A program made the translations under genes and the position numbers. Positions 6,074-35,252 of a stretch of 42,879 bases of DNA are shown here, piece by piece; within the stretch, counting starts at the first letter, position 1, and each line of letters starts with the position of its first letter. The stretch is from a bacterium. Its GTDB lineage: Bacteria; Campylobacterota; Campylobacteria; Campylobacterales; Sulfurimonadaceae. The DNA is taken from the NCBI GenBank assembly GCA_018824305.1, contig JAHJGM010000066.1, positions 1 through 42,879 on the forward strand, read 5' to 3'. The notes under the pieces were generated by a model. That model was not told where the DNA came from, made no database searches, and was given only the letters and a program-made list of their open reading frames with translations.

Positions 6074-8236
6074 TTAAAAATTTTGGACAAAACTTACAAG
6101 ATAGTTTCTGCCCTCACGCTGAATGCCGCCATTGACATAGTAATAATATGCCGGCTGCATAACTCGTTCATTAAAAATATTTTTAACTGTTATCTGCAAG
6201 GTACTTGTCGGTGAAATATGATATGTTAGAGTCTCATCAAAGATATTTGCTGCTTTTACAGGCGTATCGGCACCATCACTGACTACCCACACTGTTCTTG
6301 GTGCTGTCGTTTGAGAAAAATACCTCCACGCTGTCCCAAAAGAAAATGCTGTCGTTGGTTTATAAATATAAAGAGTTTTTGCCATAAAAGGAGAGATATC
6401 GGGCATACTTTCTACGATCGAAGGATCCGGTGCTTCTAAATTTTTATCTTGGTTGCTATTATGTGTATCAAGAGGTGTAATATAATCGGTCTTTGTATAA
6501 GAAAGATTAAAATAAAAGTTGTGTTTTATAGATGTCTTATAAAAGTATTCAAATTCCACTCCTTTACTCGTTCTATCCGGATATTGCGTATATCCGTATG
6601 GAGTATAAGAAAGTTCTTCCAAATCAATTGCATTATGAAGCACTGTGTAATAAAAATTGAGTGTAAATTTATTATAAAAATCCGGAACATATACCATGGC
6701 TGCTTCATAAGTGTTACACTCTTCAGGTTTTAAATCAGGGTCTCCCATGCGCAGATTGATATGTCCTAGAGCATATTTTTCCGTCAAAGTCGGAGCTCGA
6801 TATGCAGAACCGTAGAGAAGTTTAAGCGTTGTTTTGTCATTTGCACGGTAAACAAATCCAATGCGTTTACTAAGTTCATTTCCGACATCTGACATATTGT
6901 CAAAACGCAGACCTAAAATAAGATCTATTGTGTTAGTAAGTGAAATCAGATCTTGCGCATATCCATAAACATTCGTTCTACTGATACCGCTTGGAAGTAT
7001 TGTCGTTGCAGTCGGGTCAAGCCAGTAAGCAGGTTCATTTACTTGATTATATCTAAAACTGCTGTCACTCTTGAGCGTACTCATGTTACCGCTTTGTACA
7101 ATTGCATTTTCAACACTGCTGAAGTAATCATCTTGCGAAACTACATCATAAGTCACACCTACTCCGATTAAAATATCATTTGAAGCGATCGGAGGCAGGG
7201 TTAAAGTGGATTCAAAGCCATAGTTGTCTTCCCCAATATTTTCAATACTGTAAAAACCGTTTAATCTTGTTCCCGCATAGCTAGAACTATTTGTTACGGA
7301 GGCTATATTTGCATTAACATTTTCATTACGATGTGAGTAATTGATTTTTGTCTCAAGTTCATAATCATTAAAAGAGGTTTTATTGCTTAATTGTGAAAGA
7401 AAATAGATATTTGTATGATTTTCAGGTCTATCAGAAAGGGGATTGAGTTCGCCCTCAAAACTATAATAGTTTCCCGAAGTTTCGTGTTTGAGTCTGGTTA
7501 AAAATTCCCAGCCGTCTTTTGATGCTTTAAAACCTACACTGTAATCTTTTGTCGTTTCATCTGTATCTCCGCCATAGCCGGGAAGAGGAAGTGCTTTATT
7601 ATTAGAATACGCATATCCGTCTGCAAAGATATTCCAGCCGTTTTCTGTCGTAAAAAGATTTGTTCCGGCAGTAATAGCGCCATAACTTCCGCCACCTACA
7701 TAAATTTGATTATTTTTTTGAGAACTGCCCATTTTTGTGATGATGTTTACAGCTCCATAATATGCCCCGCCGCCGTACATCGTAGAAGCAGGACCTCGAA
7801 GTACCTCAATCTTTTTAACAAGATGCATTGGAAAATCAAGATAAAAGCTTGCTGTCCCAGTCACATCATTGTTAATAGGTACACCGTCGATAAGGATCAG
7901 TGTTTTGTCCGCAAAGTAAGCGTTTGGATTCTTAAAACCTCTTACAGTGGTAATAGTATATCCCATTGGACTGACTTGAACTTGAAAGCCGGGAAGCATA
8001 TCTAGGGCTTGGGAAATATTTTGTATTCCTGCATCTAAAAATGTCTGGGCATCTATGACGGTAACGACCGAGGGCAAATAATCCACATTGATGGATTTTT
8101 TAGTGGCTATACTACTTACGTCGTTTAGCAGTGATTCAAAATCCGTTACATTGCTGTTTGTTGTATCTGTTGTATTTGCATGTAGTAAATTGCTCAAAAA
8201 AAGCAAAAAAGCAATATTAGTAAAAATTATTTTCAT
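6074..8236 (-). CDS. TonB-dependent outer-membrane receptor
   Basis: From MKIIFTN, chosen because it starts the Sec signal peptide (cleavage near LLHANT), this is 720 residues; an in-frame ATG 51 nt upstream would add a non-signal leader. The plug domain spans about residues 45-165, with YLPSVVTVIDAQTF, ALDMLPGFQV, ILIDGVPINND and VLRGPASTMYGGGAYYGAVNIIT. The remainder is a 22-strand barrel ending in the terminal aromatic strand (LVSFVQNF). The plug resembles the vitamin B12 and colicin receptor group (BtuB/CirA), but the substrate cannot be assigned. It diverges from the yfiR-like and GGDEF genes, so it may deliver the signal they sense. Confidence 0.93.
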   Translation of the reverse strand: MKIIFTNIAFLLFLSNLLHANTTDTTNSNVTDFESLLNDVSSIATKKSINVDYLPSVVTVIDAQTFLDAGIQNISQALDMLPGFQVQVSPMGYTITTVRGFKNPNAYFADKTLILIDGVPINNDVTGTASFYLDFPMHLVKKIEVLRGPASTMYGGGAYYGAVNIITKMGSSQKNNQIYVGGGSYGAITAGTNLFTTENGWNIFADGYAYSNNKALPLPGYGGDTDETTKDYSVGFKASKDGWEFLTRLKHETSGNYYSFEGELNPLSDRPENHTNIYFLSQLSNKTSFNDYELETKINYSHRNENVNANIASVTNSSSYAGTRLNGFYSIENIGEDNYGFESTLTLPPIASNDILIGVGVTYDVVSQDDYFSSVENAIVQSGNMSTLKSDSSFRYNQVNEPAYWLDPTATTILPSGISRTNVYGYAQDLISLTNTIDLILGLRFDNMSDVGNELSKRIGFVYRANDKTTLKLLYGSAYRAPTLTEKYALGHINLRMGDPDLKPEECNTYEAAMVYVPDFYNKFTLNFYYTVLHNAIDLEELSYTPYGYTQYPDRTSKGVEFEYFYKTSIKHNFYFNLSYTKTDYITPLDTHNSNQDKNLEAPDPSIVESMPDISPFMAKTLYIYKPTTAFSFGTAWRYFSQTTAPRTVWVVSDGADTPVKAANIFDETLTYHISPTSTLQITVKNIFNERVMQPAYYYYVNGGIQREGRNYLVSFVQNF

Positions 8237-8348
8237 AATAGTTTGAAGACCCTTTCTTTTGTTGCATAATTGTAGCATAAGTGTCAAAAGTTTATGAAAA
8301 ATATGTTACTATTAACAGGTATTTATTTTAGCTTTAAAGAGTTGCATT
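8237..8348. promoter_or_regulatory. Divergent promoter region between TonB receptor and yfiR-like gene
   Basis: These 112 AT-rich bases must hold the promoters of both transcription units. An AAAGAG ribosome-binding site at 8336-8341 lies 7 nt before the TTG start at 8349. On the minus strand GAAAGGG lies about 14 nt before the receptor ATG, a long spacing. No clear Fur-box palindrome was recognised. Confidence 0.4.
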
Positions 8349-8909
8349 TTGTTATTAAGAGTTTTCAAACTTTTTTCGATTATTTACCTGCTTTTTGGAT
8401 TGACCTCTTTAAATGCTGCAGACTATGATGATGACGTATTGGAGATTTTTTCGAGATTATTGCCGCGTTTTGTCTTGATGAGCAATCAAAAACTCAAAAT
8501 AGAGAATCAGATCGATATATGCGTCTTGCATGAAGATGTCGACGGGATGGCTTTGATCAATCTGTTGGATAAAATAAACAACAATTATCCAAACGGCTTA
8601 AAAAACTACAAAATAAAATTTTCCCATAATGATTTTACAAATCTGGATCTATGCAAAGACAGTGAACTTGTATTTTTGTTTAATGCTTCGGAGAAACATG
8701 TGGCCGATACGATCAGCTATGCAAAAAAAGAGAAGATCATGACCGTTTCGTATGATGCAAAATTGCTTGCCAAGGGTGTGGGGCTTTCTCTTTTTTTAGG
8801 AAGAAAGATCGTACCGTATATAAATGTCAAGGCTCTACAGGATAATGGGATCCTGTTGGACAGTCTTTTATTTAGAATCTCAAAAATATATACACAGACG
8901 GATAAATAA
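8349..8909 (+). CDS. YfiR-like (DUF4154) periplasmic regulator
   Basis: This 186-residue protein has a signal peptide (residues 1-23, ending LNAADY). Its body fits the YfiR/DUF4154 fold: a strand INQ/IDICVL near residue 55, ELVFLFNASEKHV, a VSYDAKLLAKGVGLSLFLGRK core, and the C-terminal LDSLLFRISKIY. Known YfiR proteins are periplasmic repressors of a membrane diguanylate cyclase. Two Cys residues (CVLHE and LCKDSE) could form the regulatory disulfide known in this family. The start is a TTG, supported by AAAGAG 7 nt upstream and by the need for a full signal peptide. Its stop overlaps the next start by 1 nt (TAATG), so the two are coupled. Confidence 0.8.
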   Translation: MLLRVFKLFSIIYLLFGLTSLNAADYDDDVLEIFSRLLPRFVLMSNQKLKIENQIDICVLHEDVDGMALINLLDKINNNYPNGLKNYKIKFSHNDFTNLDLCKDSELVFLFNASEKHVADTISYAKKEKIMTVSYDAKLLAKGVGLSLFLGRKIVPYINVKALQDNGILLDSLLFRISKIYTQTDK

Positions 8910-10195
8910 TGCGTAAAATAGGTATAGAGATCAAAATCATTTTAAGTGTCGTCTTCTTTACGCTTTTGATTGCCGGTTTGGAGCGATATCAGCTTTCCGA
9001 GAACATTGTCAATCAATTTATCAATTCAAAAAAGTCAAAAAATAAACTGTTGATGGATACCATTCTTCCCGTTATCAGCTTAGACCTTTCTTTGGGACTT
9101 GGCGATTCCAATATTGAGTTTTTGGATCTTATTGTCAAGCAAAATAAAGATATAAAGTATCTGCATATTACAAATAAAGAGAATAAACCGATTTTTCAGT
9201 ATCCAAAAAATTTGGATTTTAAACTTCAAACAGGAAATATCGACAGTATCAATAATTGTGCGAGCCCGATAGTCGATAATATTACGGGAGAGACGATAGG
9301 ACATATATATCTGGAGTTTTATAATAACGACTATGAACAGGTTCTCTCTAAAAATAAAGAGACGACGATCAAGATCTTTTTGGTCACATTGGTTCTGCTA
9401 GGAGTTCTTGTCTATTTTATTAAAAAAGAGTTTAAACATCTAAGAAAGCTGACTAAGGCTGTTTTACAATATGACCCGAAGCAGAATCATTTTAGCTTGA
9501 AAAGGACGAAAAGACTCGATGAAGTCGGAGTCATTCATAATGCCATCATCGATATGGTAGATAAAATAAGTTCTCATACGAAACTTTTGGATGATTTGAA
9601 CTATTCTTTGGAGGAAAAGATCATAGAGCGGACACAAGAGCTTCAAAAGGTCAACGAACAGTTAGAAAAGCTCTCTATTACCGATCCTCTTACCAAGGTC
9701 TCAAACAGGAGACATTTTGAAAACTACGTGCAAGAGATCTGGAATCTGTCGGTACGTACGAATATACATCTGTCTTTGATTATGTGCGATATAGATTATT
9801 TTAAAACAGTCAACGACACATACGGGCATCTTGTAGGTGATGAAGTCCTGAAAAATGTTGCCAAGACCATTCAAAAATCATTGAAAAGGTCTACAGACCT
9901 AGTGGCGCGTTATGGCGGCGAAGAGTTTGTTATAATCTTGTGTGACACGGATATAGCCGCAGCTAAAGAGGTGTGTGAGGAAATAGTCAACAATCTTAAA
10001 CATCGCAACAACTTTAAGATAGGGGATAAAATAATCGAACCGTTCACGATGAGTTTTGGTATCAGCAGTATGCGGCCTACAAAAGATCATAGATATAAAG
10101 ACCTATTGCGGCTCGCAGACGAAGCTCTTTATAAAGCAAAGGAAAACGGTAGAAATCAGACAGTCGCTATTGATTTTAACGATCAAGACAGCTAA
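8909..10195 (+). CDS. YfiN-like membrane diguanylate cyclase (HAMP-GGDEF)
   Basis: This 428-residue protein has TM1 at about 8-24, a periplasmic domain at 25-150, TM2 at about 154-171, a HAMP linker, a coiled coil (about 220-255), and a C-terminal GGDEF domain. The active-site loop is GGEEF at 336-340. An allosteric I-site, RSTD at 327-330, sits exactly five residues upstream, so product inhibition is expected. It should make c-di-GMP from two GTP. Coupling to the yfiR-like gene and divergence from a TonB receptor suggest that periplasmic YfiR restrains it until an outer-membrane or redox signal relieves the block. Confidence 0.93.
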   Translation: MRKIGIEIKIILSVVFFTLLIAGLERYQLSENIVNQFINSKKSKNKLLMDTILPVISLDLSLGLGDSNIEFLDLIVKQNKDIKYLHITNKENKPIFQYPKNLDFKLQTGNIDSINNCASPIVDNITGETIGHIYLEFYNNDYEQVLSKNKETTIKIFLVTLVLLGVLVYFIKKEFKHLRKLTKAVLQYDPKQNHFSLKRTKRLDEVGVIHNAIIDMVDKISSHTKLLDDLNYSLEEKIIERTQELQKVNEQLEKLSITDPLTKVSNRRHFENYVQEIWNLSVRTNIHLSLIMCDIDYFKTVNDTYGHLVGDEVLKNVAKTIQKSLKRSTDLVARYGGEEFVIILCDTDIAAAKEVCEEIVNNLKHRNNFKIGDKIIEPFTMSFGISSMRPTKDHRYKDLLRLADEALYKAKENGRNQTVAIDFNDQDS

Positions 10196-22631: not shown

Positions 22632-23165
22632 ATGGCAGAAATAAAGATAGGCGTGATCACGGCAAGCGACAGAGCAAGTGCGGGAATATATGAGGATATC
22701 TCTGGAATGGCGATACAAGATACGATGAAAGATTATCTCACGAGCGAGTTTGAGATAGTTTACAGATGTATCCCAGATGAGCAGGATATCATCGAAGCGA
22801 CGATGAAAGAGCTATGCGATGAGGCAGGATGCTGTTTAGTAGTGACAACAGGCGGGACCGGTCCTGCTCTTCGTGACGTGACACCCGAGGCGACAGAAAA
22901 CGTATGTGAGAAGATGATGCCTGGTTTTGGCGAGCTGATGCGTCAGGTGAGTCTTTTGTATGTACCCACAGCCATCCTCTCACGCCAGACTGCGGGTATA
23001 AGAGGCAAGTCTCTTATCATCAACCTTCCAGGCAAGCCGAAATCCATACGTGAATGTCTGGATGCGGTATTTCCTGCAGTGCCTTACTGCATCGACCTTA
23101 TAGAGGGTCCATATATTGAAACAAACGAAGAGGTCATCAAAGCATTTCGACCAAAGAGTAAATAA
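22632..23165 (+). CDS. mogA: Molybdopterin adenylyltransferase
   Basis: This 177-residue enzyme adenylates molybdopterin before molybdenum insertion. IGVITASDRASAGIYEDISG is the N-terminal signature, split as TASDRASAG plus YEDISG. TTGGTGPALRDVTPEAT is the catalytic loop, and the RDVTPE form favours MogA over MoaB. LINLPGKPKSIRECLDAV is also conserved. A strong AGGAG ribosome-binding site precedes the ATG. The final 18 codons (from 23109) are duplicated at 28364, beyond the signalling cassette. The last five residues use different synonymous codons in the two copies, so the present 3' end may be of foreign origin. Confidence 0.95.
   Translation: MAEIKIGVITASDRASAGIYEDISGMAIQDTMKDYLTSEFEIVYRCIPDEQDIIEATMKELCDEAGCCLVVTTGGTGPALRDVTPEATENVCEKMMPGFGELMRQVSLLYVPTAILSRQTAGIRGKSLIINLPGKPKSIRECLDAVFPAVPYCIDLIEGPYIETNEEVIKAFRPKSK
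23109..23165 (+). repeat. Direct repeat, copy 1: 3' end of mogA
   Basis: These 57 bases encode PYIETNEEVIKAFRPKSK and stop. The first 39 bases (23109-23147) are identical to 28364-28402; the last 18 differ at five positions, all synonymous. It forms the left border of the signalling cassette. Confidence 0.95.
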
Positions 23166-23198
23166 AATTTAATCAAGTTATATCTGAGGAATCTAAAA

Positions 23199-25814
23199 GT
23201 GAAATTTATTTCCATTAATACTAAGCTCAATATCGCTGTTATCGGTGTATCATCGATAATCTTGATAATAAGTTCGATTATATTGTTTTGGTATGCACAG
23301 CAGATAAAAGTTGATGTATACAAGAGTGTTCAACAAGATTTGATCATTCAAGCTGACGATGATATAAAATCGAAGATGGATATAGGAATAACAAACGCAT
23401 ATTCTATTGCAAACGATGAGCGGATAAAACTGGCATATAAATCGAATAAAAGAGAGTATGCGATCGATGCGCTCAAAGAGATCTCTGTTAAAATGCGAGA
23501 AAATACCAGTTTTAAAAATATTAAGATCCATCTTCACACGAAGGACAACAAATCATTTTTGAGAAATTGGGATCCCTCCCATTATGGGGACGATCTCAGT
23601 TATTTTAGATATGACGTAGTTGCCGTAAATAAAACAAAACAGCCTATTGTCACGTTTGAAACAGGGAAAGCGGGACTTTTATTAAGAGCGATTATTCCCA
23701 TATCCTATAACGATCATAAGCATTTAGGTTCATTGGAATTTATACAGGGATTAAACTCTATCGCCGAAGATTTCGATAAAAAAAATATTGGTTTTTTACT
23801 TTTAATGGATGAAAAGATAAAAGAAAATATTACAAGAGGTAAAATAAAATCATCGGAAGATAAAATATTCGGCACCTATATCATATCTCAAAAATTCATT
23901 AATCAAGATTTTTTAAATGATGTAAAAAAGATAGAGATCAAACGATTGCTAAAAGAGAAGTACTTGGTAACCTCTAAATATTATTATACCTATAAAGAGA
24001 TAAAGGATTTTCAAAATAATATACTTGGAATCGCGATACTTGAAAAACCTCTAACAGAAGTAGAGCGAATAATTGTAAATCAAAAAAATTTAATCTATAT
24101 GGCTCTTTTTGGTATATTCCTTATGGCGGTAATTATAAGCATAATAATAATTTTGGCGATAAGAAAGCTTGTGACTAAACCGTTGAAAGCATTTGAAAAC
24201 GGGTTACTTGATTTCTTTCTGTTTTTACAAGCCAAAAAAGATTATGTTTTAAATATTGATATCGACTCCAATGACGAGTTTGGCGTAATGGCAGAATCTT
24301 TGAGAGAAAATATTGCCGTAAGTGCAAGGCTTCACGAAGAGATAAATGATCTTAACCAAAATCTTGAAAATAAAATTGAGCAAAAAACAAAAAAAATATC
24401 TGTACTTTTAGACAATGCAGGTCAGGGTTTTTTAACATTCGATAAAAACTTTATAATAGATGAAGAATACTCAAAAGAGTGTATAAAGCTCTTGGGCGAT
24501 AAGATCGGCAGAAAGAACATTGCCGAACTTCTGTTTGAAGATAATTTAAAACGGGAGTTTTTTAGGTCTACTTTACTGGAAGCTCTCAATGAACCGATGG
24601 CTATTAAAAGAAATTCATACCTGTCACTTTTGCCGCAGATTACCATCTTGAATAAAAAAGCTTTAAAGCTTGAATATAAGATTTTAGAAGATAGCTATTT
24701 TATGCTGATCTTGACCAATATAACTTCTCAAAGAAAACTTGAAAACAAGATGAAAAAAGAGCAGGAAACTTTTAAAATGATAGTTTCTATAGTCAGTGAA
24801 AGCGGTGTGTTTTTCGATCTAAAAAAAGAGTATGGCAATTTTATAAATAATTATAAAAAATTAATCGACATAAAGCTGAGTCCAAAACATAATATCGGTG
24901 AGATATATCGGGCAGTCCATACTTTCAAAGGCTCTTTTTCACAAATGTATATGCAAAATATCGTTGGTTTCTTGCATGATTTGGAAACAAAAATATCTCT
25001 TATGCTTAAAAAAGAGGATGTTACGAATGAAGAGTTGATACACTTGTTGGACCAAACGAATTTCAAAGAGAATCTGGATGAAAGTCTGAAAATCATAATA
25101 GAGATACTGGGAGATGATTTCTTAAACGCTCAAAACTTTTTAAAGATAAACTTATCAAATATACTTGCTCTTCAGGATAAGATAGCCAATATTGTAGATA
25201 AAGTAGAATCAACATCTCCGGAGTGTCAGGATATTCTATGTCATGTTCAAAATCTTTCAAACTATAAATTGATAGATTTACTAAGACCTTACAATAAGTT
25301 GGTGCAGCAATTAGCATCAAAATTTGGAAAAGAGATATATGAATTTGACATTGCAGGAGATACGGATATAACTGTTTCGGAAAATATAAAACCGTTTATA
25401 AAGTCACTTATACATATATTTAGAAACAGCGTTGATCACGGTATAGAGTCCTATGAAAAGAGAGAAGAGCTGCAAAAAGATGAAATAGGGACTATCACTT
25501 GTAGTATTCAAACAAATAATGATAATATTCATATAATAATCGAAGACGACGGTTCAGGGATAGATATCGAAAAAATCAAAAATAAAGCTGTTTCATTTGG
25601 TATAGATACGAGTAAAATGAATGACGAAGAAATTTATAACCTTATCTTTGAAGACGGATTCAGTACCAAAGACAGGGTGGATGAAATATCGGGCAGAGGA
25701 GTAGGCATGGCGGTTGTGAAAAATGAGCTTGAAAAAATAAATGGGGTGATTCAAATAAAATCACTTGCAGATGTCGGTACGACATTTGAATTTATCATAC
25801 CAAACAAAGGATAA
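23199..25814 (+). CDS. Membrane CheA-like hybrid kinase (Cache-HAMP-PAS-HPt-HATPase), no CheW domain
   Basis: This 871-residue protein starts at a GTG with GAGGA 9 nt upstream. TM1 (about 10-34) and TM2 (about 300-322) enclose a Cache-type sensor with FLRNWDPSHYGDDLSYFRY and FETGKAGLLLRAIIP, a dCache_3-like pattern. HAMP, a coiled coil, and a PAS domain near 400-510 (LLDNAGQGFLTFDKNFIID) follow. The HPt domain has phospho-accepting H574 in AVHTFKGSFSQMY. The ATPase is CheA-like, with RNSVDHGIE near 740 and GRGVGMAVV near 830. It ends right after the ATPase, so no CheW-like coupling domain exists. It should sense a periplasmic ligand and phosphorylate the adjacent CheY. Confidence 0.9.
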   Translation: MKFISINTKLNIAVIGVSSIILIISSIILFWYAQQIKVDVYKSVQQDLIIQADDDIKSKMDIGITNAYSIANDERIKLAYKSNKREYAIDALKEISVKMRENTSFKNIKIHLHTKDNKSFLRNWDPSHYGDDLSYFRYDVVAVNKTKQPIVTFETGKAGLLLRAIIPISYNDHKHLGSLEFIQGLNSIAEDFDKKNIGFLLLMDEKIKENITRGKIKSSEDKIFGTYIISQKFINQDFLNDVKKIEIKRLLKEKYLVTSKYYYTYKEIKDFQNNILGIAILEKPLTEVERIIVNQKNLIYMALFGIFLMAVIISIIIILAIRKLVTKPLKAFENGLLDFFLFLQAKKDYVLNIDIDSNDEFGVMAESLRENIAVSARLHEEINDLNQNLENKIEQKTKKISVLLDNAGQGFLTFDKNFIIDEEYSKECIKLLGDKIGRKNIAELLFEDNLKREFFRSTLLEALNEPMAIKRNSYLSLLPQITILNKKALKLEYKILEDSYFMLILTNITSQRKLENKMKKEQETFKMIVSIVSESGVFFDLKKEYGNFINNYKKLIDIKLSPKHNIGEIYRAVHTFKGSFSQMYMQNIVGFLHDLETKISLMLKKEDVTNEELIHLLDQTNFKENLDESLKIIIEILGDDFLNAQNFLKINLSNILALQDKIANIVDKVESTSPECQDILCHVQNLSNYKLIDLLRPYNKLVQQLASKFGKEIYEFDIAGDTDITVSENIKPFIKSLIHIFRNSVDHGIESYEKREELQKDEIGTITCSIQTNNDNIHIIIEDDGSGIDIEKIKNKAVSFGIDTSKMNDEEIYNLIFEDGFSTKDRVDEISGRGVGMAVVKNELEKINGVIQIKSLADVGTTFEFIIPNKG

Positions 25815-25816
25815 GC

Positions 25817-26290
25817 ATGATCATTGAATCGCTGATGCTTCAAATGAAGCTGTTTTTACAAGATGATATGAATATAGTCATCGAGCATACGGAAATTTTA
25901 GACAAAGACAATGATAAGGTGATTTTAAAAGATTATACATCGATGATCGGAGTCGGAGGTAAACTGAATCTGATGGTCGTAATCAGTTATCAAAACTCTT
26001 TATTGAATGAACTGGTTTCTCTTTTTATGGACGGCGAAGAGGTTGACCCGCAGGAGGAAGAAGAGATCAAAGAGAGTGTAGCCGGTGAGGTCGTTAATAC
26101 GATCATGGGTCTTGCTTTACCGACTTTTCCAAATAGAGGAAAAGGGGTGACGATCACTCCTCCAATTACTATTAATGACGCTTCAAATATAGCAAAACAC
26201 AAAAATTCAAAAATTATAACGGCTATCATAACAACACAATTCGGAGAACTGAGCGTAAGCGCAATCGGTCCTGACGATATTATAAAGTAA
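25817..26290 (+). CDS. CheX-like phosphatase or chemotaxis-fold protein
   Basis: This 157-residue acidic protein fits the CheX/CheC fold. An ESVAGEVVNTIMG segment near residue 85 carries the ExxN motif that in CheX inserts into the CheY active site to hydrolyse phospho-Asp. TITPPITINDASNI and the C-terminal strand (FGELSVSAIG) agree with CheX. There is a single such motif. It starts 2 nt after the kinase stop with an AAAGGA ribosome-binding site and precedes the CheY gene, so it is likely the off-switch of this phosphorelay. Confidence 0.75.
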   Translation: MIIESLMLQMKLFLQDDMNIVIEHTEILDKDNDKVILKDYTSMIGVGGKLNLMVVISYQNSLLNELVSLFMDGEEVDPQEEEEIKESVAGEVVNTIMGLALPTFPNRGKGVTITPPITINDASNIAKHKNSKIITAIITTQFGELSVSAIGPDDIIK

Positions 26291-26305
26291 AGTAAAAAAA
26301 TATTT

Positions 26306-26719
26306 ATGTTAAAAGTTTTAATTGTAGATGATTCATTGATCATAAGAAAAAAAGTTTCCAAATTGCTTGAGAATTTGGGACATGAAGTGATCGCAGATGC
26401 TCAAAACGGTCAAGAAGCCATAGACGCGTATAACGCAAAACAACCCGATATGGTGACTATGGATATAACAATGCCCGATATGGATGGTATAACTGCTGTA
26501 AAACACATCATGAAGGATAATCCTGAAGCAAAGATAATCATGGTTACTTCACACGGACAAGAAGATATGGTCATAAAATCAATACAAGCAGGGGCGGTTG
26601 GGTATATGCTAAAACCGATAACCGAAGATAAACTAGCACATGCGATCGGTGAGATATTTATAGAGTATGCTATTGATGAGAAAGATGATGAACTCGATCT
26701 GTTAGATGATAGTTTTTAA
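26306..26719 (+). CDS. CheY-type single-domain response regulator
   Basis: This 137-residue protein is a receiver domain with acidic pair D8/D9, phospho-acceptor D53 (TMDITMPDMDG), T81 and K103 (MLKPI), plus an acidic tail of about 20 residues (DEKDDELDLLDDSF). It has no output domain, so it must act by protein contact, most simply with the neighbouring diguanylate cyclase or PAS protein. It is the expected acceptor from H574 of the upstream kinase. The ribosome-binding site is weak. Confidence 0.93.
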   Translation: MLKVLIVDDSLIIRKKVSKLLENLGHEVIADAQNGQEAIDAYNAKQPDMVTMDITMPDMDGITAVKHIMKDNPEAKIIMVTSHGQEDMVIKSIQAGAVGYMLKPITEDKLAHAIGEIFIEYAIDEKDDELDLLDDSF

Positions 26720-26730
26720 GAAAGAAGATA

Positions 26731-27678
26731 ATGCAAGAAAATAAACTTTTTGAAGCTTTGCTCGATGTCATTCCTTTTGCTTCTTATGCCGTTGATATAG
26801 AGACTTTCGAAGTCGTATATGCAAATAAGATGATGCATGAGAAGATGTATGCACCAAAAGAGAGCTCTTGCTGGAAAAAGATTTATGGTCAGAATAATGT
26901 ATGTTCATGGTGCACTATTGCTCAGTTTAAACAAAGAGAAAAACTTTACAACAGTGGAAAAATAATCAGTAGCTTTTTCGATGAAGCAACTGATCTATGG
27001 TTTCAAGTCTATGATGAAATTGTAAAATGGCCCGATGGTAGAAGTGTGAAATATTCTGTTGCAGTCGATATCACGGATCAAAAAGAGATTCAGGCCTCTA
27101 TGATTAAGACTCACACAAAGCTGGCGGTTCAAACTAACAAATTGAAACAGGCGTATGAAAAGATGGAAATCTTAGCTACAAAAGATGCTTTAACAAAGAT
27201 AAACAACAGAGGTAACTTTTTTGCTCTTGCAAAAAAAATATGGAGTAAAAAATTATCTGAGAATAAACATATTTATGTTGCAATGCTAGATCTAGATAAG
27301 TTTAAACAATTAAATGATAAATATGGGCATCAACTTGGTGATGAAGCCCTTGTAAAGTTTACAAAGGCCGTAAATAAAAATTTAGATAATGAAGATATTT
27401 TCGGAAGAATAGGCGGAGAAGAATTTGCCATTGTCATGATAGGTTCCAATATTGAGGATATCTTTAATAAACTGGAGTCTATCAGAGCATCGGTAGAATC
27501 GATAACACTTGTTAAAGATGGAGAAAGTATTAAATTTACGGTGAGTATCGGGTTTGAAGAAAAATTTGAAGAAGAGAGCATTGATAGTCTTCTTGAAAGA
27601 GCAGATAAACGACTTTATGAAGCAAAATCAATAGGAAGAAATAAAGTGAATTTTAGAGGTTTAGATGATAGAAAATAA
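26731..27678 (+). CDS. PAS-GGDEF diguanylate cyclase with Cys-rich PAS
   Basis: This 315-residue soluble protein has an N-terminal PAS domain (residues 1-120, ending KYSVAVDITDQKEIQ), a coiled coil, and a GGDEF domain from about 150. The active-site loop is GGEEF at 228-232. The allosteric I-site is absent: DNED stands where RxxD would be, so product inhibition is not expected. The PAS carries C47, C58 and C61 in a CWxKxxGQNxxCxWC pattern, which could bind a metal, Fe-S or haem cofactor or act as a thiol switch. The next gene carries the same PAS. Gene order suggests that the CheY relay feeds this cyclase. Confidence 0.9.
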   Translation: MQENKLFEALLDVIPFASYAVDIETFEVVYANKMMHEKMYAPKESSCWKKIYGQNNVCSWCTIAQFKQREKLYNSGKIISSFFDEATDLWFQVYDEIVKWPDGRSVKYSVAVDITDQKEIQASMIKTHTKLAVQTNKLKQAYEKMEILATKDALTKINNRGNFFALAKKIWSKKLSENKHIYVAMLDLDKFKQLNDKYGHQLGDEALVKFTKAVNKNLDNEDIFGRIGGEEFAIVMIGSNIEDIFNKLESIRASVESITLVKDGESIKFTVSIGFEEKFEEESIDSLLERADKRLYEAKSIGRNKVNFRGLDDRK

Positions 27679-28348
27679 GCTTTTTGAAGCACTTCTTGAT
27701 GTTATACCGTTTGCTGCTTATGCCGTTGACATAGATACATATGAAGTTGTGTATGCGAACAAGATTATGAGAGAAAATATGTTTGCACCTCAAGAAAAAC
27801 ATTGTTGGGCAAAAGTTTTCGGACAAAATAAGATTTGTGATTGGTGCAGCATAAAAGATTTAAAAAATAGAAAATTAAAAAATAGAAGTGCTGAAAAGCT
27901 AACCCGAGATTTTTTTTATGAGATAGACGATAAATGGATAAAATCCTACAATGAACTTATCAGCTGGCCAGATGGCAGAGATGTAAAATATTCTATTTTA
28001 ATCGATATTACCGACCAAAAAGCGATACAAGGCGATATGATTCGAGCCCATGCAAAATTGGCAATGAATAATAAGCATATTACATTGACAAATAAAAACT
28101 TACAGATTACCAAGTTAAAATTTCAGAAATCTCTGAATGAATTAGAGAGTGTAAAAAAATCTAAATTCGAGCTTTTTCATACCATGAGTGATGAAATAAA
28201 AATGGCAATGGATACTACTTTGAGCAGTATAAATGCAATGAAAAAAACTACTCTTAGCCCGGAACAATCGGAGCGTATAAAAGCGATAGAAAACTCATCA
28301 AAAAATCTTTTAGATAAAATAGATAAACTTTCCAACTTTACTAAGTAA
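27665..28348 (+). CDS. PAS protein ending in a degenerate, catalytically dead HisKA
   Basis: This 227-residue protein is a tandem paralogue of the preceding cyclase over its first 120 residues, with C47, C58 and C61 at the same positions. The C-terminal part replaces GGDEF with a HisKA-like helical hairpin (KSKFELFHTMSDEIKMAM, then NLLDKIDKLSNFTK). The phospho-accepting His of the MSHEI motif is Asp here, and no HATPase domain follows. It may be a dimerisation partner or decoy, or the truncated remains of a kinase cut at the cassette border, since the mogA-tail repeat begins 15 nt after its stop. It overlaps the upstream gene by 14 nt and has an AGAGG ribosome-binding site. Confidence 0.75.
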   Translation: MIENKLFEALLDVIPFAAYAVDIDTYEVVYANKIMRENMFAPQEKHCWAKVFGQNKICDWCSIKDLKNRKLKNRSAEKLTRDFFYEIDDKWIKSYNELISWPDGRDVKYSILIDITDQKAIQGDMIRAHAKLAMNNKHITLTNKNLQITKLKFQKSLNELESVKKSKFELFHTMSDEIKMAMDTTLSSINAMKKTTLSPEQSERIKAIENSSKNLLDKIDKLSNFTK

Positions 28349-28363
28349 TCAAAGTATTTCTTA

Positions 28364-28420
28364 CCATATATTGAAACAAACGAAGAGGTCATCAAAGCAT
28401 TTAGACCGAAATCTAAATAA
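28364..28420 (+). pseudogene. Direct repeat, copy 2: orphan 3' end of mogA
   Basis: These 57 bases encode the same PYIETNEEVIKAFRPKSK tail as mogA but have no start or upstream coding part. The first 39 bases are identical to 23109-23147. The copy is in frame with the stop of the preceding PAS-HisKA gene. It marks the right border of the cassette and is probably the original mogA terminus, or a donor-derived one. Confidence 0.92.
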
Positions 28421-28482
28421 TTTTACTTTGAATTAAGGGCAAGACACATATCATTTACATATAGTTAGAAAAAGGGGAGAAA

Positions 28483-29325
28483 ATGAAAAAAATTTTATTG
28501 TCGCTTACTTTTGCAGCGACTTCTTTGCTCGCATTTTGTGATACGCAGGCTGGTCAGACCTGTAATAATCAGAGTGAGCTTTTCATCAGTAATCAGTCAA
28601 TAGTAAATGAGGTAGTCGTTGATACACCAAAAACAGATCTGATCACAAGTACGACAAATAAGTTCTCAGCTTCCGTACAGGCGATCCATTCGGATGATTT
28701 TAATATGTTTAATCTTCCGTTGGGTGCAAATATAGGTTCACATTTCGGAGCTGAAGTCAATGTCCCTTATATCTCTAAAAAAGATCAGGTAACAGGCGAT
28801 ACAAATAGTGGTATTGGTGATGTGTCAGCAGGCGGGAACTTTCATTTTGGTGCTATGAGCGAGGGGAGTGGACTTAACATTACGACACTGTTATATAAAA
28901 CAACTACAGGCGGCAGTAACAAGGGGCTTGGGTCTGATAAACCGGCATATACGCTTTCACATAAGTTCTCAAAATATATGATTAAAGAGATCGAAGGAAA
29001 TGCTATTTTTTCTTATACTTTCAATGACACTTCTGTTTCAGGGAACTCTTATCTTGCAGCACTGGGCGGTTCGATGCCGTGTTTACTTTATAATAAAATA
29101 CATACAAATGCGAAAATCTCCTATTTTCATATCGACAAAGTAGGTGACGGATTCCTGCTTCCTGAGGTAAAATCGGCTGATCTTTGGATAGGCTGGGATT
29201 TGAAACAGATTACGGCAAACATTCCGGTTTCTTTTGGTTTAAAAGTGCCTTTACTCAATGAAGTCGGCGGTGTGGATGCAGATAAAAAGTTTTTATTTTA
29301 TCTTAGTATGACGGGACTCTATTAA
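28483..29325 (+). CDS. Predicted outer-membrane beta-barrel protein
   Basis: This 280-residue protein has a signal peptide (residues 1-17, ending SLLAFC). Amphipathic strands of alternating pattern follow and end in an aromatic-terminated strand (FLFYLSMTGLY). The central GIGDVSAGGNFHFG segment is typical of the transporter/MetA-pathway type of outer-membrane barrel families. Two Cys near the mature N-terminus (FCDTQAGQTC) could form a disulfide or a lipid anchor. The function is not recognised. A strong AAGGGGAG ribosome-binding site precedes the ATG. Its 3' end overlaps the convergent xthA stop by 4 nt. Confidence 0.75.
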   Translation: MKKILLSLTFAATSLLAFCDTQAGQTCNNQSELFISNQSIVNEVVVDTPKTDLITSTTNKFSASVQAIHSDDFNMFNLPLGANIGSHFGAEVNVPYISKKDQVTGDTNSGIGDVSAGGNFHFGAMSEGSGLNITTLLYKTTTGGSNKGLGSDKPAYTLSHKFSKYMIKEIEGNAIFSYTFNDTSVSGNSYLAALGGSMPCLLYNKIHTNAKISYFHIDKVGDGFLLPEVKSADLWIGWDLKQITANIPVSFGLKVPLLNEVGGVDADKKFLFYLSMTGLY

Positions 29326-30098
29326 AAAGAGATCCTGATCCCTACAGGGCAGTGATCTGAGCCCGTGATCTCTGGCAGTATAAAAGCATCTTCGAGATTT
29401 TCTGCCAGATCTTCGGAGATAAAAAAATAATCTATTCTCCAGCCTACATTGTTCATCCTAGCGTTAAATCTGTAACTCCACCAACTGTAAGCATCAATTA
29501 CATCCCCGTGAACATATCTGAATGTATCGATATACCCGTGAGAAAGGAGTTTGTCTATCCAAGCTCTCTCTATTGGTAAAAATCCGCTTGTCTTTGAGTT
29601 TGCTTTTGGGTTTTTGAGGTCTATCTCGCGGTGGGCGGTGTTGACGTCGCCGCAGATAATGATCGATTTTCCCTCTTCACGAAGTTTCTCACAATGTTCT
29701 AAAAAGTCATCATAAAACTTCATCTTTAACCGTAGTCTTTCTTCATCCTTTTGTCCGTTTGGAAAGTAGACGTTAAAAAGAGCAATATCGCCAAAATGCT
29801 GCTCTATGATGCGTCCCTCATTCATTGTATCGATATCTTTACATGTAGAGTTATAATCGCTTTTGAGTGCTGAAAACGTAGCGGTTCCCGAGTAGCCTTT
29901 TTTTTCGGCGCTGTTGATTAGCACCTCATTGTGCTGCTTAAGAAAAAGAGTGTCGGGTATCTGCTCAGGAGTCGCTTTTATCTCCTGAAGGCATAAGATG
30001 TCCGTATCTCTCTCATCGAGCCATTTAAGCGCCTCTTTGGTGGCAATAGCACGTATTCCGTTGACGTTCCATGAGATTATTTCTATCGAGTCTGACAT
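29322..30098 (-). CDS. xthA: Exodeoxyribonuclease III (AP endonuclease)
   Basis: This 258-residue DNA-repair nuclease cuts 5' to abasic sites and has 3'-5' exonuclease activity. ISWNVNGIRA at the start, LCLQEIKA (metal-binding Glu), NVYFPNGQ, ICGDVNTAH, WSYRFNARMNNVGWRIDYF (split over two motifs) and the terminal GSDHCPVGI (catalytic His) are all intact. The length is typical. It stands alone, converging with the outer-membrane protein gene and separated by about 110 nt from the sdh operon upstream. Confidence 0.97.
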   Translation of the reverse strand: MSDSIEIISWNVNGIRAIATKEALKWLDERDTDILCLQEIKATPEQIPDTLFLKQHNEVLINSAEKKGYSGTATFSALKSDYNSTCKDIDTMNEGRIIEQHFGDIALFNVYFPNGQKDEERLRLKMKFYDDFLEHCEKLREEGKSIIICGDVNTAHREIDLKNPKANSKTSGFLPIERAWIDKLLSHGYIDTFRYVHGDVIDAYSWWSYRFNARMNNVGWRIDYFFISEDLAENLEDAFILPEITGSDHCPVGIRISF

Positions 30099-33972: not shown

Positions 33973-35172
33973 TTAAAATTTCTCAGCGTGATCGCGTATT
34001 TGAGCAATGCGGTTTTGACCGTTTGCTTTTGCAGTTTGCAGTATCTCTTTTGCATTTGAGATCGCATCATCTAAAGATTTGTTGGCTTGTTTTATCAGAA
34101 AACCGCCGCTTAAGGTAAACGGGATCCTTTCGCCCTGCGGATTTTTGAATACAGCCTCTTCAATGCTTTTTCTAATCGAGTCACAGTCATTGAGAGCTTT
34201 GTCTTTTGATTCTCTTGATAAAACGACTGCAAACTGGTCATAATCGATGCGAGCAATAACATCGGTAGGCTGCTCATATAAAGATATAATGAAAGCTATC
34301 TTTTTAAGCATCGTCTGCGTTAGCTCTTTTGGCAGCTCTTTTTCATATTTTCTGAAATTATCGACTTCAAACACACAGACTGTGGTGTAGTTGCTGTCTT
34401 TCATTCCCTTCTTTTCTGAGTATGCGTGAACCATACCTTTATAGTTTTTTATTCCGGTGACGGGATCTACCATACTGGGATTTTGTGTGGTCGTAGGTTT
34501 TCTTACCATTCTTATTTTAATAGCGTCTACCTCTTCGGTAGCAATGGTCTCTGATGTTTTTTCTTGTCCGATCGCGTATAAAGAGCGTATATCGTTATAG
34601 ATGATCTTTAGTTTTTTGGAATACCAAAAAACACCGATCAGTGATAATAGAAAAGTTGTATAAAAAATCCACTGTGTGATGAAAAATTTGCTTTTATCAT
34701 ATTTTAGATTTTTATAAACAATCTCATCTAAATGAGATAAAAGAGCTTTTTTTGAACTGGTTAAGTCATTTAATTTTTTATCTAACTCTTCTGTGTTGTT
34801 TGCATAGTATAGATTTAATTGTTCAATATACTTATCTTCTGAATCCAATAATATTTTGATGTCATTATTGAATTCACTGCTAAATCCAAAAAGAGTTCCT
34901 AAAACATCATAAGAAGATATCGTATTTAAAGATAATGCCGTTGTCTTGAGATCAGCGCTCATCCCGCGTACTTGGATAATACTGTAATCAAGGTCGGCTC
35001 TGCCAAGGTCATATAGTTTATTGACAAGAACTTTTTGCTCTTGTATATTCTCTATTTTACGGAAAGAGGAGTATCTATTAAGCTCAATAAGAGAGATCAT
35101 AAATAATAAAATAGAGATCATTGTTAATAAAAATAGTAAGTTTTTAAACACAGATTGGATTGAAAATTTCAT
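33973..35172 (-). CDS. Membrane protein with degenerate GGDEF domain
   Basis: From the ATG at 35172 (AAGGA 8 nt upstream; an in-frame TTG lies 6 nt further out) this is 399 residues. TM1 (about 10-30) and TM2 (about 165-182) flank a helical periplasmic domain rich in Leu and Asn, like a four-helix-bundle sensor. The C-terminal GGDEF fold begins at PVTGIKNYKGMVHAY, but its active-site loop reads IDYDQF in place of GGDEF, so catalysis is unlikely. It may bind c-di-GMP or GTP, or act by protein contact. It lies upstream of the sdh operon on the same strand, 160 nt away, and diverges from thiL. Confidence 0.85.
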   Translation of the reverse strand: MKFSIQSVFKNLLFLLTMISILLFMISLIELNRYSSFRKIENIQEQKVLVNKLYDLGRADLDYSIIQVRGMSADLKTTALSLNTISSYDVLGTLFGFSSEFNNDIKILLDSEDKYIEQLNLYYANNTEELDKKLNDLTSSKKALLSHLDEIVYKNLKYDKSKFFITQWIFYTTFLLSLIGVFWYSKKLKIIYNDIRSLYAIGQEKTSETIATEEVDAIKIRMVRKPTTTQNPSMVDPVTGIKNYKGMVHAYSEKKGMKDSNYTTVCVFEVDNFRKYEKELPKELTQTMLKKIAFIISLYEQPTDVIARIDYDQFAVVLSRESKDKALNDCDSIRKSIEEAVFKNPQGERIPFTLSGGFLIKQANKSLDDAISNAKEILQTAKANGQNRIAQIRDHAEKF

Positions 35173-35252
35173 TACCAAAGTCCTTTTAAATTTATCACAT
35201 TCTTTAGTTATTCTATATAGATATAGTTTAACATATCCTTAATCACATTTCA

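Follow-up and report, generated by a model that had tools for sequence, protein, structure and literature searches.

Background

The chemotaxis kinase CheA has no sensor of its own and relies on receptor arrays via CheW. In the Wsp pathway (WspE/WspR), an MCP, CheW and CheR/CheB homologues occur together with a REC-GGDEF protein. SiaC, the partner protein of the SiaABCD system, is not a receiver. A survey of 13,673 CheAs found CheW in all of them, stated that CheA is without a sensor domain, and reported fusions with CheC/CheX from the F1 CheAs of Leptospirae alone (PMC10782961); a survey of Campylobacterota counted kinases by the presence of HisKA plus HATPase (PMC9239204).

In this study, a five-gene cluster was analysed in a 42,879-nt stretch of DNA, hereafter called the window. 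A preliminary description of the cluster had listed a membrane kinase, a CheX-like phosphatase, a stand-alone CheY, a PAS-GGDEF cyclase and a PAS/dead-HisKA protein, and had inferred a self-contained relay that appears to end in c-di-GMP.

Organization of the cluster and its insertion site

All five ORFs are present on a single strand, packed closely into one operon whose catalytic residues are intact. The parts are as follows:

22632 to 23165, + strand: moaB-like gene, left flank
23199 to 25814, + strand: membrane receptor-kinase, 871 aa; TM1 about 11–31, dCache_3 54–287, TM2 about 300–325, HAMP-like segment about 326–375, PAS-like domain 409–507, HPt 535–643, short hairpin 652–687, CheA-P4 ATPase 691–870; without a CheW domain
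23199 to 24302, + strand: sensor half of the kinase (TM-dCache-TM-HAMP, aa 1–368), with homologues among same-genome MCPs and clade-B kinases
24369 to 25811, + strand: transmitter core of the kinase (PAS-HPt-hairpin-ATPase, aa 391–871)
25817 to 26290, + strand: predicted CheX-family phosphatase, 157 aa, with E91-x-x-N94 (PF13690, 1.6e-14)
26306 to 26719, + strand: stand-alone CheY-like receiver, 137 aa, with D53 (PF00072, 1e-31)
26731 to 27678, + strand: PAS-GGDEF diguanylate cyclase, 315 aa, with GGEEF and without RxxD; C47, C58 and C61 invariant in the PAS domain
27665 to 28348, + strand: PAS protein with a remnant HisKA, 227 aa, Asp176 in place of His, no ATPase
29322 to 30098, − strand: xthA-like gene, right flank and other border of the empty site

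The spacing between consecutive ORFs is +2, +15, +11 and −14 nt, the last being a 14-nt overlap. Neither MCP, CheR nor CheB was found among the cluster genes, and CheW, with 12 matches elsewhere in the genome, was found nowhere on the window contig, in agreement with the absence of these four components noted earlier.

The G+C content of the cluster is 32.7%, compared with 41% upstream and 39% downstream, making it the lowest 5.15-kb stretch of the window. CheX of the window type was absent from all seven other species of the genus that were searched, and in three of these seven (G016, G017 and G018) moaB directly adjoins xthA, which represents an empty site. Low G+C content and the empty site in sister species indicate that the cluster is a self-contained, mobile insertion that was, as far as the sequences tell, horizontally acquired. 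A small outer-membrane-type gene (28483 to 29325) is also missing in G016, G017 and G018, so it may or may not have arrived with the insert. The moaB-xthA interval (22632 to 30098) is variable in the genus: it is empty in three species, contains other small genes in G013 and G019, and holds the five-gene cluster plus the outer-membrane-type gene in the window species.

Receptor-kinase

The Pfam search placed dCache_3 at aa 54–287 of the kinase (E 7e-24) and HATPase_c (PF02518) at aa 736–869 (E 3e-17), and two hydrophobic helices were seen at about 11–31 and 300–325. HPt was matched below threshold (562–611), the PAS-like domain was not named, and the HAMP region received no Pfam call, yet it aligns with the HAMP of true MCPs. 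No CheW domain was matched at E<=1, and the chain stops right after the ATPase; Pfam found no HisKA in the kinase, the candidate acceptor His being located on the HPt instead. The domain order Cache, HAMP, PAS, HPt and CheA-type ATPase without CheW, as first described, is thereby confirmed, with HAMP resting on alignment.

Aligned over 369 aa, residues 1–368 share 34% identity with MCP L006, a chemoreceptor of the same genome; the same-genome chemoreceptors matching the sensor half have the architecture dCache_3-HAMP-MCPsignal-CZB. The sensor half is thus homologous to true chemoreceptors, and the proposal that receptor and CheA are merged in one chain is literally supported. Over the first 390 residues, the N-terminal half shows 51–61% identity to clade B (L046–L052) and 13–26% to clade A, while the transmitter core is 57–60% identical to the kinases of L054, L055 and L057. 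With its N-terminal half nearer to L046–L052 and its core nearer to the L054/L055/L057 clade, the window kinase is a chimera with a swapped sensor. CheX and CheY, like the core, are nearer to the L054/L055/L057 clade.

All 20 relatives compared share the predicted phosphorylation site H574 (codon 24918–24920), and the corresponding alignment column is uniform across 53. K577 and the ATP-site motifs show no variation either, and the HPt motif reads H-x-x-K-G. PDB relatives of the C-terminal part of the kinase were all CheA (E down to 9e-35), and profile alignment with CheA gave 100%. An AlphaFold model of aa 391–871, built on a 53-row alignment (pLDDT 88), contains the PAS domain, a five-helix bundle carrying H574, a short hairpin of helices and a P4 fold; its best Foldseek match was CheA P3P4 of Thermotoga (4xiv, E 1e-16), and 1b3q was also matched. 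H-kinase_dim had no Pfam match; profile alignment covers its second helix, and the hairpin of the model is short (17+14 residues). That the dimerization helices are missed by Pfam and short in the model counts against the mechanism favoured below.

With neither CheW nor HisKA, the kinase is by published definitions neither a CheA nor a HisKA kinase. Its dCache_3 and two TM helices share the chain with the CheA-type ATPase, unlike CheA as defined in PMC10782961. Under the stated criteria of the two surveys (CheW in PMC10782961, HisKA in PMC9239204), this kinase family would go uncounted. No description of a receptor-fused CheA-type architecture was found in the open-access literature searched.

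Conservation and spread of the family

The search for relatives covered 228 genomes from the same family and 397 from the phylum. The sensors N-terminal to the recurring transmitter core (aa 391–871) differ and include dCache, an NMT1/SsuA-like binding protein, 7TM and Ser/Thr-kinase-GAF. Of the 55 kinase loci uncut by a contig end, 47 have CheX, separate or fused, and CheY no more than 4.5 kb away on the kinase strand; 13 of those 47 carry CheX as a C-terminal extension of the kinase, at the position of CheW in CheA. Kinase and phosphatase in one chain were seen in L063, L065, L075–L082, L126 and L127. Two tandem CheY genes lie behind the kinase with fused CheX in L063 (4362–5174) and L065 (6172–6990).

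Seven loci (L054, L055, L057, L059, L060, L061 and L262) show the exact five-gene order; L270 has it with the two PAS genes exchanged, and in G216 it is divided between two contigs. L262 and L270 belong to two further families of the order, including the one with Arcobacter, and L267, also from there, has the first four genes. The order, which the preliminary description had suggested looking for elsewhere in Campylobacterota, is thus conserved across families; together with the insertion at a site empty in sister species, this bears out the self-contained nature of the unit. All 16 strong PAS-GGDEF matches in the 228 genomes (E below about 1e-19) were in clusters with CheX and CheY or on a contig end completing one.

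Outside the phylum, CheX and CheY adjoin the kinase in a Burkholderiaceae MAG (L129) and in another Proteobacteria MAG (L130), and relatives with fused CheX occur in Bacillota (L126 and L127, Syntrophomonas). In L129 (3486–10464), a 2019-aa Ser/Thr kinase-AAA-TPR-GAF-HPt-HATPase protein is followed by CheX and CheY; a PAS match adjoining it, probably L129's own PAS, was excluded from the counts. In an unrooted tree of the core, the kinases of these loci group together (SH-aLRT 100), apart from the CheAs of the window genome.

Proposed mechanism

We consider it fairly probable that the cluster is an acquired self-contained cassette in which a receptor-kinase signals to CheY, CheX resets the system, and CheY~P acts on the PAS proteins and c-di-GMP. 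A ligand would be bound by the periplasmic dCache domain, and the signal would pass through TM2, the HAMP-like segment and the PAS domain to the CheA-type ATPase, which would phosphorylate H574 of the built-in HPt with no need for CheW, a receptor array or methylation. The phosphate would be transferred from the HPt to D53 of the stand-alone CheY and taken off by CheX. In the window's clade, CheY~P would then act on the PAS proteins encoded alongside it, with the PAS-GGDEF protein as the likeliest target, and so set c-di-GMP; the PAS-only partner, as a decayed kinase with the same PAS, would probably tune the cyclase, e.g. through PAS/coiled-coil heterodimers. Phosphotransfer, dephosphorylation by CheX, the c-di-GMP output and direct action of CheY on the PAS-GGDEF protein are the steps that we infer. 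The present analysis thus gives partial support to the mechanism put forward in the preliminary description.

PAS proteins and c-di-GMP

The cyclase has GGEEF at 228–232 and the metal-binding DxD at 187/189, which is invariant in the family. The I-site position (219–222) reads DNED, so the cyclase without RxxD is as described; RxxD is retained in L046, L050, L052, L063 and L065, and its loss is specific to the window's clade.

The PAS domains of genes 4 and 5 (26731 to 27129 and 27665 to 28063) share C47-W48, G53 and C58-x-W60-C61, which are kept without exception among 19 relatives and may form a metal, Fe-S or redox site. These three invariant cysteines make a separate metal or redox input a serious alternative: the relay would be real, with the PAS-GGDEF protein working independently as a one-component cyclase controlled by its three-Cys PAS, CheY would have its target in trans, and the genes would travel together for a common response. 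This agrees with L047, L048, L049 and L051, where kinase, CheX and CheY are followed by housekeeping or transport genes and GGDEF is lacking, and with the absence of any CheY-PAS fusion among the PAS matches in the 228 genomes; both findings, like the three-Cys motif itself, also count against the cassette mechanism favoured here. On the other hand, the PAS family is restricted to these clusters in the 228 genomes, and a PAS shared by two proteins whose outputs differ would fit a common domain for docking or control; an independent cyclase is regarded as somewhat unlikely. As to the cassette mechanism, the presence of a common PAS on two proteins beside a stand-alone receiver suggests that this domain may be the common control point, either through docking of CheY~P or through heterodimer formation.

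About 60 GGDEF domains and more than 50 receiver matches are present in the 2.4-Mb genome, so that co-location in one genome alone means little. Elsewhere in the window, a GGDEF-domain membrane protein with the signature DYDQF (33973 to 35178, − strand) is probably inactive, and a TonB receptor, a YfiR/HmsC-like protein (DUF4154) and an adjoining GGDEF protein (6074 to 10195) form a YfiBNR-like c-di-GMP unit. Around the kinases, GGDEF genes numbered 31/377 within four genes and 0/276 farther away, an enrichment giving weak support because the loci are related and the genome is GGDEF-rich. No uncut member of the clade to which the window cluster belongs lacks PAS-GGDEF. The GGDEF gene thus belongs to the system in this clade, as the preliminary description had it; the four loci without GGDEF indicate that the family can do without the c-di-GMP branch, which is not its universal output. 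Accordingly worded, c-di-GMP is the probable output of the window's clade, not of the whole family.

Gene 5 encodes the same PAS as gene 4, followed by a HisKA with Asp176 replacing His and no HATPase domain. Its counterparts in relatives are full PAS-HisKA-HATPase-(REC-HPt) kinases, and elsewhere it has shrunk to PAS plus a coiled coil. The "dead HisKA" of the first description therefore stands in its residues and is better read, by this comparison, as the remnant of a full hybrid kinase. In G216, the last cluster gene encodes a 294-aa REC-GGDEF protein (L235, 4362–5246), an explicit phospho-to-c-di-GMP output.

A multistep phosphorelay would accommodate these proteins, with CheY as a shuttle or sink, hybrid kinases and REC-GGDEF (G216, G117 and G151) as the final receivers, and the window copy having lost part of this branch. 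PAS-HisKA-HATPase-REC-HPt proteins in L055, L057 and L235, the REC-GGDEF in L235 and the remnant in the window are all in keeping with it. However, most clade members have the short PAS protein only, or none, so the hybrid branch is not needed for the core, and we consider such a relay unlikely.

CheX and CheY

E91-x-x-N94 of CheX aligns with the E-x-x-N of Thermotoga maritima CheX (1squ), and the motif is kept across the family; the catalytic motif expected of a CheX-like phosphatase gene is thus present. CheY carries D8/D9, D53, T81 and K103. The residues W58, K91 and K119 (E. coli numbers), involved in FliM binding, have been reported as conserved in, and exclusive to, motor-binding CheYs of Campylobacterota (PMC9321776). 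In the window CheY they are I, Q and A, with T87 and Y106 kept, and they are replaced in all 37 family CheYs (by I, Q/E and a non-Lys residue). Another CheY of the same genome, L103, retains W58 and K119.

If CheY~P acted on the flagellar motor, the receptor-kinase would bypass the array for taxis, a role that the homology of the sensor half with MCPs and the retention of T87 and Y106 would fit. The replacement of W58, K91 and K119 in 37 of 37 family CheYs argues against a motor output, as do their partial retention in L103 and the fact that no flagellar genes were seen in the cluster; we regard this output as very improbable.

The divergence of CheX and CheY tracks that of the kinase (r = 0.80 and 0.77, respectively; Mantel p 0.0005), and in three genomes with two clusters each CheX and CheY groups by its own kinase type, not by genome. 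This co-divergence favours a dedicated kinase-CheY-CheX circuit, without proving one. For the five-gene unit, chance proximity in a genome with about 60 GGDEF domains in 2.4 Mb is refuted: three families of the order keep the gene arrangement, the genes were inserted together, the PAS family is linked to these clusters exclusively, and kinase, CheX and CheY co-diverge.

Comparison with known systems

The family may tentatively be regarded as a separate class of prokaryotic phosphorelay with members in several phyla, the receptor being joined to a CheA-type transmitter (PAS-HPt-P4, without CheW) and accompanied by a dedicated CheX and CheY; we hold this to be possible rather than established. 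It is a conserved family spanning several phyla that dispenses with arrays and CheW yet keeps CheX and CheY. If true, the class would stand midway between two-component and chemosensory systems, carried by a cassette moving between species with interchangeable sensors. With such a family, the origin of receptor-CheA arrays from two-component systems becomes testable in living examples. Signal engineering gains a simple cassette of two to five genes, and a periplasmic signal may have a new route to c-di-GMP.

The kinase resembles CheA in the HPt motif, the P4 ATPase, the CheY and CheX partners and the lack of HisKA; it differs in being membrane-bound, with its own periplasmic sensor, no CheW domain and short dimerization helices. 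Compared with chemosensory clusters, the cassette is without receptor, CheW, CheR and CheB genes. Like classical two-component systems of the Cache-HAMP-PAS-HisKA-HATPase type, it has a one-chain sensor kinase and a cognate receiver, but the phospho-His is predicted on an HPt, the ATPase is of the CheA type, CheX is dedicated and DHp/HisKA is absent. The Leptospirae F1 CheA-CheC/CheX fusions (PMC10782961) are similar to the loci with fused CheX (L063, L065, L075–L082, L126 and L127) in having CheX on a CheA-type kinase; the Leptospirae CheAs retain CheW, whereas this family has CheX in its place. A stand-alone partner protein driving a separate diguanylate cyclase, as proposed here, is reminiscent of SiaABCD (PMC8457831), from which the cassette differs in both kinase and phosphatase. 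The proposed feeding of a GGDEF enzyme by a CheA-type kinase outside taxis is shared with Wsp; in contrast to Wsp, the cassette is without MCP, CheW, CheR/CheB and REC-GGDEF, and its receiver and cyclase are separate proteins.
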